Shown here one piece after another: positions 35,868-60,302 of a stretch of 64,000 bases of DNA (positions within the stretch are counted from its first letter, which is position 1; every line of letters begins with the position of its first letter). The position numbers were made by a program, and so were the translations under genes. The notes beneath the pieces were generated by a model. The model was not told where the DNA came from and ran no database searches. It worked only from the letters and a program-made list of their open reading frames with translations. The stretch spans positions 1,057,529 through 1,121,528 of the forward strand of contig BOKP01000001.1 of the NCBI GenBank assembly GCA_016861045.1, read 5' to 3'. The stretch is from Actinomycetes bacterium. GTDB lineage: Bacteria; Actinomycetota; Thermoleophilia; Solirubrobacterales; 70-9.

Positions 35868-35895
35868 CCTCGATTCCGCCCCCACCCTCGGAAGC

Positions 35896-35936
35896 TGGGG
35901 CATTCCGCGGCCGCATAGGGTGCTGAAAATGCCCCA
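35896..35936 (+). repeat. 41-bp palindromic repeat, copy 1
   Basis: Arms TGGGGCATT (35896-35904) and AATGCCCCA (35928-35936); core begins CCGCGGCCGCATA then GGGTGCTGAA. GGAAGC precedes it, as in copy 2. Confidence 0.9.
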
Positions 35937-35957
35937 CCCCCCTCAGCTCCGGGAAGC

Positions 35958-35998
35958 TGGGGCATTCCGCGGCCGCATACGGTGCTGAAAATGCCCCA
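35958..35998 (+). repeat. 41-bp palindromic repeat, copy 2
   Basis: Identical to copy 1 except one base in the core (G to C after CCGCATA). It starts exactly 62 bp after copy 1, leaving a 21-bp spacer (35937-35957). Confidence 0.9.
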
Positions 35999-36035
35999 CG
36001 TCGGAGAGGGCGGGCGGGAGGGCAAGTAGCGTCAG

Positions 36036-59115: not shown

Positions 59116-59129
59116 CCCCACACCCGAGG

Positions 59130-59170
59130 TGGGGCATTTCGCGGCCGCATAGGGTGCTCAGAATGCCCCA
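59130..59170 (+). repeat. 41-bp palindromic repeat, copy 3
   Basis: Arms TGGGGCATT (59130-59138) and AATGCCCCA (59162-59170), with three core differences from copy 1. It supplies the stop codon of the convergent nuclease-like gene. Confidence 0.9.
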
Positions 59171-60066
59171 CCATGGAGGCGGAGGCCGGCTGCCAGGTCC
59201 CGAACCACTTCGTCGGGCTCCCGGTGCAGGCGGTTACTGGTGATTCGCAGCGAGCTGATGCCGGCACGCAGGAGCGTTGCGTCACGCTTCCGGTCGCGCT
59301 CGTGCGCATGCCAGGTCTTGTGCCATCCCTGGCTGTCGAGCTCGACGACGAATCGCGCCTCCTGCCACCAGCAGTCGACCAGCAGGCCTTCGACGAGCAC
59401 GTTCGTCTGCGGGGTGGGAAGCCCGTGCTTGCGCAGGAACAGCTGGAACTCCCGCTCGGTTCCCTCGTTCGTGTTCGGCGTCGAGATGAACCTCCCGATG
59501 ATCCGCTTCAGCGGCTTCTCGCCTTGATGGCCGCGGTACCGCTCGATGGCGTCCCTGACGGCTCCGATGTCGAGAACCTCCAGCCGGTCAGCAGACTCGA
59601 CGACCTTCTCCAGGCGGGTGATCGGCAGGATCTGGGCAAGATCGAGCAGCGTACGGGGGATCGAAGTCATCGGGAGGCCGTCGATCAGGACCCGATCCTC
59701 GGGATCGATCCGTCGCGGCCTGTGGACGATCACGCCTTCGAGCCGGCGCTGAACTCTCGAGGAGATCGAGACGTGGATCGTCGCCGTGGAGCGCATCAGG
59801 TCCTGGCGCGCGGCGGAGCTGATGTGGGTGAGCAGTGGATCCGGCCCGATTGCCAGCAGGGCGGCGCGCTCCCGGCCATCCCTGGTCAGCGCCTGGGGCC
59901 CGAGCGCGTAGACGCCTTCGTGGACGACCCGGAGCCGCTGCCTCGTCAAGGACCGTCCAATCGATCTCGGGCTGAAGCCGAGCCCGAGAAGCTGTTGCCG
60001 CGACACCACGCCGAACTGGCGGCGTCCGAGTTCGGAGAGGCGACGGTCCCGATCCTCGCTTGCCAT
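59158..60066 (-). CDS. AbiEi-type winged-helix domain fused to DUF559 (Vsr-like nuclease fold)
   Basis: 302 residues. N-terminal winged helix of the AbiEi antitoxin type (RRQFGVVSRQQLLGLGFSPRSI, VHEGVYALG), a middle region (about 75-200) typical of these fusions, and a C-terminal DUF559 domain related to very-short-patch-repair nucleases: Asp231 in VDCWW, Glu242 and Asp244 in VVELD, then HERDRKRDATLLRAG. The PD-(D/E)xK-type residues are in place, so nuclease activity is plausible. Third codon positions are clearly less GC-rich than in neighbours, a sign of transfer. The gene lies between repeat copies 3 and 4/5 and separates xerD from mutM. Confidence 0.85.
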   Translation of the reverse strand: MASEDRDRRLSELGRRQFGVVSRQQLLGLGFSPRSIGRSLTRQRLRVVHEGVYALGPQALTRDGRERAALLAIGPDPLLTHISSAARQDLMRSTATIHVSISSRVQRRLEGVIVHRPRRIDPEDRVLIDGLPMTSIPRTLLDLAQILPITRLEKVVESADRLEVLDIGAVRDAIERYRGHQGEKPLKRIIGRFISTPNTNEGTEREFQLFLRKHGLPTPQTNVLVEGLLVDCWWQEARFVVELDSQGWHKTWHAHERDRKRDATLLRAGISSLRITSNRLHREPDEVVRDLAAGLRLHGGAF

Positions 60067-60157
60067 CCGGTGACCATGCCATCCGGTCGGATACAGGTGG
60101 CCACATGACTGTGCCCACCCAGGCTCAATCTCGTGAAAGCTCTCCTACCACCCGAGG

Positions 60158-60198
60158 TGGGCCATTCCGCGGCCGCATACGGTGCTGAGAATGCCCCA
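60158..60198 (+). repeat. 41-bp palindromic repeat, copy 4
   Basis: Left arm TGGGCCATT has one change against the right arm AATGCCCCA. Same core as copy 2 except for one A-to-G near the right arm. Confidence 0.9.
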
Positions 60199-60219
60199 CC
60201 CCCGGGAGGGAGCGGAGGG

Positions 60220-60260
60220 TGGGCCATTCCGCGGCCGCATACGGTGCTGAGAATGCCCCA
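60220..60260 (+). repeat. 41-bp palindromic repeat, copy 5
   Basis: Identical to copy 4 and 62 bp downstream of it, with a 21-bp spacer (60199-60219). Confidence 0.9.
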
Positions 60261-60302
60261 CCTCTGGTGGGTGGGGCGGGTGGGGTGGACGGCGCATGCG
60301 CC

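Follow-up and report, generated by a model that had tools for sequence, protein, structure and literature searches.

Does the nuclease gene that lies between xerD and mutM form a unit with the short palindromes beside it, and if so, of what kind? The window (the whole stretch of DNA analyzed here, 64,000 nucleotides) contains an AbiEi-DUF559 fusion gene in the intergenic region between xerD and mutM, with intact palindromes on both flanks. The first-pass annotation had proposed that the gene is bracketed by palindromes, and these are real, one copy (R1) being located on one side and a tandem of two (R2 and R3) on the other. The repeat that it gave as 41 bp long also exists, although its unit is an imperfect palindrome of 43 bp. 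The features considered below are as follows.

59129..59171, + strand: palindrome copy R1, overlapping the 3' end of the nuclease gene, whose stop codon it includes
59158..60066, - strand: AbiEi-DUF559 fusion gene, 302 aa
59476..60066, - strand: AbiEi-like DNA-binding and C-terminal domains, residues ~1-197 (PADLOC AbiEi, fold match)
59167..59472, - strand: DUF559/Vsr-like nuclease domain, residues ~199-300 (Pfam, conserved residues, fold match)
60157..60199, + strand: palindrome copy R2, 5' of the nuclease gene; dyad 112 bp upstream of the annotated start
60219..60261, + strand: palindrome copy R3, on the mutM side of the nuclease gene; forms a direct tandem with R2, period 62 bp
35895..35937 and 35957..35999, + strand: pair of dispersed copies of the R1-R3 palindrome, no nuclease gene beside them

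Copies R1 and R2 share 92% identity over 52 bp, and no repeat matches were obtained in dinucleotide shuffles of the window. Comparison of 18 copies gave an invariant part that, on the strand of the nuclease gene, reads TATGCGGC or CATGCGGC. As had been claimed, the stop codon of the gene (59158-59160) falls inside a repeat copy, R1, and the composition of the gene is atypical, with a GC content of 67.1% vs 73.6% for the window. No adjacent gene for an AbiEii nucleotidyltransferase toxin is evident at the locus, its neighbors being xerD and mutM. The pair at 35895-35999, which the first-pass annotation had not mentioned, is situated just past a prolidase-like gene and ahead of a YidC-like gene.

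The domain assignment made from the sequence, a DNA-binding winged helix followed by a Vsr-like nuclease with its active-site residues intact, is borne out by domain searches, an alignment of 56 homologues and fold matches. The window protein scores 28.2 against DUF559, a Pfam domain of unknown function, with a cut-off of 20.6. Its match to AbiEi_4 is weak in Pfam; the PADLOC AbiEi models match it with an E-value of 6e-20, and AbiEi_4 is present in 53 of the 56 homologues. Three acidic residues (D231, E242, and D258) are invariant among these homologues, and E204, D244, and H249 are nearly so. In an AlphaFold2 model built from the same alignment (mean pLDDT 92.9), the stretch from residue 5 to 194 resembles in fold the AbiEi antitoxin from Streptococcus agalactiae (6y8q; Z 14.1 over 183 residues) and Rv2827c (1zel; Z 11.1), and that from 199 to 300 resembles I-Bth0305I (3r3p; Z 12.9), a homing endonuclease, and Vsr (1cw0; Z 9.8). 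As modeled, the window protein joins a DNA-binding regulator of AbiEi type to a nuclease like Vsr and I-Bth0305I. Such genes occur commonly in the order, with matches at E<=1e-20 in 43 of 50 genomes of the family and up to 14 matches per genome. No homologue was found in plasmid records at 1e-10.

The genome (2.70 Mb, 97% complete) carries at least 18 strong copies of the window repeat at 10 sites. Seven sites are direct pairs with copies 61-62 bp apart, three are solitary copies, and the xerD-mutM site has R1 as a third copy. The repeat sites inspected all lie between predicted genes in various arrangements, several of them between convergent genes, and no nuclease gene is near any of the nine sites outside xerD-mutM. 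The check proposed earlier, a search for the window repeat at the other DUF559/AbiEi paralogues of the same genome (about ten), came out negative. Therefore, on that evidence alone, the module would have resembled a coincidence, that is, an ordinary dispersed palindrome that happens to lie beside one of some ten DUF559 genes, as both the nine sites without DUF559 and the paralogues without the window repeat would allow. The verdict was a misleading negative obtained by seeking only the window's repeat, since those paralogues were then found to have palindromes of their own. For example, a 48-bp repeat (96% identical) flanks the paralogue at C4:475339 on both sides, and palindromes similar to those of four paralogues occur as solitary copies at sites that lack a DUF559 gene within 1.5 kb.

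Two further observations concern the same genome. A second dispersed repeat with the core CTCCTCGTCGGCTCACGGCCCGCTTCGGCCGCTTCGCCTCC occupies about eight sites (near C1:657850-657960, C4:268313, C4:316276, C1:370095, C1:616444, C1:355102, and others), one of them beside the DUF559 paralogue at C1:658024. In addition, a DUF559-AbiEi paralogue at C1:842869-843758 (L051, L052) is seemingly broken into two frames, which suggests a decaying copy.

In the relatives, the window repeat was absent at <=1 mismatch from the 49 other genomes of the family, and neither GTDB genome contigs nor viral contigs contained it. A covariance model of the repeat found only weak matches of other kinds in 232 genomes of the order. 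The single match to an arms-only pattern, in an Arthrobacter MAG, was taken as chance. In two congeners (MutM 85-86% identical) the genes flanking comparable repeat sites align and the repeats are missing; at three of the repeat sites the gap in the congener is just ~1-18 bp. The intergenic flanks of the repeat sites have diverged between the genomes compared. The window repeat is thus a lineage-specific spread to 10 sites in this genome.

The xerD-mutM gap itself is variable within the family. The Xer and MutM genes are directly adjacent, without a DUF559 gene, in most of the family, and in both congeners (L056/G028, L057/G027) the gap holds a different minus-strand gene whose product has a collagen-like GPP/GEKGDKG stretch. 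A clean empty site, for which the first-pass annotation had proposed a search, was therefore not found: most relatives lack the block, and the two congeners have another gene in its place.

A search with a looser pattern turned up palindromes of the same build and other sequence in a handful of genomes from the order. In G224, which belongs to another family, a direct tandem pair adjoins the 5' end of an AbiEi-DUF559 gene; therefore, we scanned regions chosen by a DUF559-AbiEi match, picking 60 of them solely for that match with the palindrome criteria fixed. Palindromes proved ~4.5 times denser beside AbiEi-DUF559 genes (38 in 14.8 kb) than in other intergenic DNA (68 in 119 kb), in a scan that also took in 12 earlier regions, ten of which had been picked for palindromes. 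The earlier regions were excluded from the controlled test, in which 176 other genes from the segments of 56 AbiEi-DUF559 genes, called crudely by a simple codon-bias ORF caller, served as controls. A palindrome was located within 300 bp of 38 of the 56 genes vs 38 of the 176 controls (p 4e-10), and within -110..+45 of the start in 39 vs 15 (p 7e-19). Palindromes on both sides were found for 11 genes vs one control (p 7e-7), and a direct repeat common to both flanks for 12 vs two (p 9e-7). These flank-shared repeats are palindromes of 38-52 bp, and the one case of 114 bp is a tandem pair. Altogether, 44 palindromes were upstream and 20 downstream, and ~30% of the 56 genes had no palindrome under the criteria used. 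Not all of the 56 genes are independent: they form 32 locus clusters, 23 of which have a palindrome.

Chance had been disfavored already, and we consider it very improbable given the strong enrichment of gene-specific palindromes in this independent set, the tandem pair that G224, from another family, has at a DUF559 gene, and the 55-bp palindrome 42 bp upstream of the closest homologue (50% identical, congener G028). The first-pass interpretation is supported in part. Its core, that a DUF559-type gene and its palindrome form a unit, has good support well outside this locus, from the clustering across the family, the placement on both sides in a subset of genes, and the gene-specific sequences; the form of the evidence differs from the one anticipated.

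The most specific regularity concerns the start codon. An in-frame start codon lay within 5 nt of the dyad in 29 of the 56 genes and in none of the 176 controls (p 1e-21), or in 16 of the 32 locus clusters, with the rule noticed and tested in one data set. The window gene breaks this rule: its own start codon is not at any dyad, and the ATG within R2 and R3 is in a different reading frame from the gene. A start codon in the loop region of so many genes would fit a palindrome that acts as RNA, with a fold across the messenger's start codon that controls translation. Single copies do fold well on either strand (R1, z -4.8), and R2, the spacer, and R3 together (60149-60270) form a single long hairpin of ~120 nt on the strand of the gene (-82 kcal/mol, z -7.8). 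However, the stem of the window family displays no excess of compensatory changes (86.5% of cells paired vs 87.6% in shuffles), copies also lie downstream of genes and remote from any start codon, no Rfam match was obtained, and the N-terminal part of the protein has the DNA-binding fold of AbiEi. We regard control at the RNA level as improbable.

How far palindromes follow their genes can be judged from their similarity. Palindrome similarity correlates with protein similarity (Spearman 0.25, with none of 2000 permutations as high), a correlation that would arise from common descent alone too. At orthologous loci with flanks 80-90% identical, the palindromes differ and are sometimes changed on both arms with pairing kept, as between L199 and L217, where three positions have changed on both arms. 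We also observed pairs at the same locus with well-conserved flanks (L199/L251, L218/L237, and L207/L227) in which the DNA of the gene aligns at the nuclease end alone. The palindrome and the DNA-binding end of the gene are dissimilar, a pattern suggestive of swapped or rapidly evolving specificity.

Evidence for dispersal elsewhere is thinner. The palindromes of other genes had two distant same-genome copies in 1.9 Mb-queries vs a background of 0.35 per Mb, in a small sample from other genomes. The genome G225 has nine copies of a palindrome family whose counterpart flanks a DUF559 gene in the congener G224. Dispersal in genomes beyond that of the window is weakly supported. The related palindromes of the two congeners have the form GTGGGACCTTTT...AAAAGGTCCCAC (L182 5852-5976, L184-L191), in nine copies in G225 and as the tandem pair at the DUF559 gene of G224. 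Many gene modules keep one chromosomal locus across a genus; therefore, the gene behaves as a resident and not as a free transposon. Of the mobility suggested by the first-pass annotation, movement of the repeats is seen only as their lineage-specific presence.

The explanation that we favor, and hold to be reasonably probable as a whole, is that a regulator of AbiEi type has been fused to a nuclease and that the palindrome is the recognition site of the gene's own protein. In its own promoter, AbiEi occupies two inverted repeats of 23 bp with 3 bp between them, Rv2827c binds two tandem pairs at -1 to -131 of its start codon, and both proteins autorepress via these inverted repeats (PMC7319586). 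The size and layout of these operators are matched by the palindromes of 43-55 bp, single or tandem, and therefore we read the palindrome as the cognate site. By analogy with both proteins, the fusion protein very probably binds its palindrome, with two AbiEi moieties predicted to sit on its two halves, and it likely represses its own gene in this way. The 5' palindrome would then be an autoregulatory operator, placed over the start codon in about half of the relatives. A plain operator explains neither the nuclease part of the protein nor the copies at 3' ends and at dispersed sites. The simplest addition would be a nuclease that cuts at or near its sites and a repair that multiplies the palindromes. 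We see an even chance that such cutting takes place at or near the palindrome; that cutting and repair have spread the palindromes, as proposed for REP/TnpAREP, is put forward tentatively.

A more economical proposal is that the palindrome is an autoregulatory operator of AbiEi type and nothing else, that the nuclease acts elsewhere (e.g. on phage DNA), and that the dispersed copies stem from an unrelated repeat amplification. AbiEi and Rv2827c repress their own genes by way of inverted repeats comparable in size and position (PMC7319586), and the AbiEi part is recognized by PADLOC. The preponderance of upstream palindromes (44 vs 20 downstream), the frequent persistence of genes at one locus across a genus, with little movement, and the weak spread in most other genomes sampled agree with it as well. 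Such an operator does not account for the matching copies beyond the stop codon in 12 of the 56 genes, for the tandem pairs, or for the 18 copies at 10 sites, several of them between convergent genes. A Y1/RAYT transposase partner that might be responsible for the spread was also not found in the genome (no match to Y1_Tnp, PF01797). We judge the operator-only account to be rather unlikely.

The fusion of regulator and nuclease acting on its own palindrome leads to a wider proposal, which is speculative and which we consider somewhat doubtful: AbiEi-DUF559 genes could supply the enzyme for palindromic mobile DNA of a new kind, recognizing the palindrome at the start codon and cutting its copies, which repair would then disperse, in parallel to REP/TnpAREP with an unrelated enzyme. 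If the nuclease does spread palindromes, the question of how bacterial genomes come by many copies of short palindromes would gain a second answer, one that evolved independently. A literature search for DUF559 with palindromes, repeats, or AbiEi returned nothing relevant, which is weak evidence, since the coverage of subscription papers was small. A private palindrome for nearly every gene offers a direct handle on the binding of each protein, so that specificity can be read from sequence and tested pair by pair.

Three known systems share parts of this arrangement. The C-terminal domain resembles the Vsr-like homing endonuclease I-Bth0305I in its fold (Z 12.9, compared with 9.8 for Vsr) and in its conserved acidic and histidine residues. 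Unlike the gene for that enzyme, the window gene is not in an intron, an intein, or an interrupted target; an AbiEi domain precedes the nuclease, and the putative site is palindromic and intact beside the gene. With the AbiEi antitoxin and Rv2827c of the type IV toxin-antitoxin system AbiE, the protein shares the fold of its N-terminal two thirds and the inverted repeats upstream, namely R2 and R3 in the window and the palindromes of 39 of the 56 family genes, the known operators being paired 23-bp repeats in a single or two tandem pairs (PMC7319586). In contrast to these proteins, the window protein continues into a nuclease, the AbiEii toxin partner of the AbiE operon is not evident at its locus, and the palindromes of the gene family often span the start codon and can recur past the stop codon, that of the window gene being dispersed in its genome. 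The third system is the REPtron (TnpAREP/RAYT), in which TnpAREP genes adjoin REPs, are usually single-copy, and co-vary with their REPs (PMC8266576, PMC3116915). The differences lie in the enzyme, an AbiEi-Vsr/DUF559 fusion in place of an HUH (Y1) enzyme (the genome gave no match to Y1_Tnp), and in the low copy number of the window repeat (18). The likeness to REPtrons extends from a gene bordered by its own palindromes, with species-specific palindromes dispersed between genes, to a low mobility of the gene and to protein and palindrome types that go together (PMC8266576, PMC3116915).
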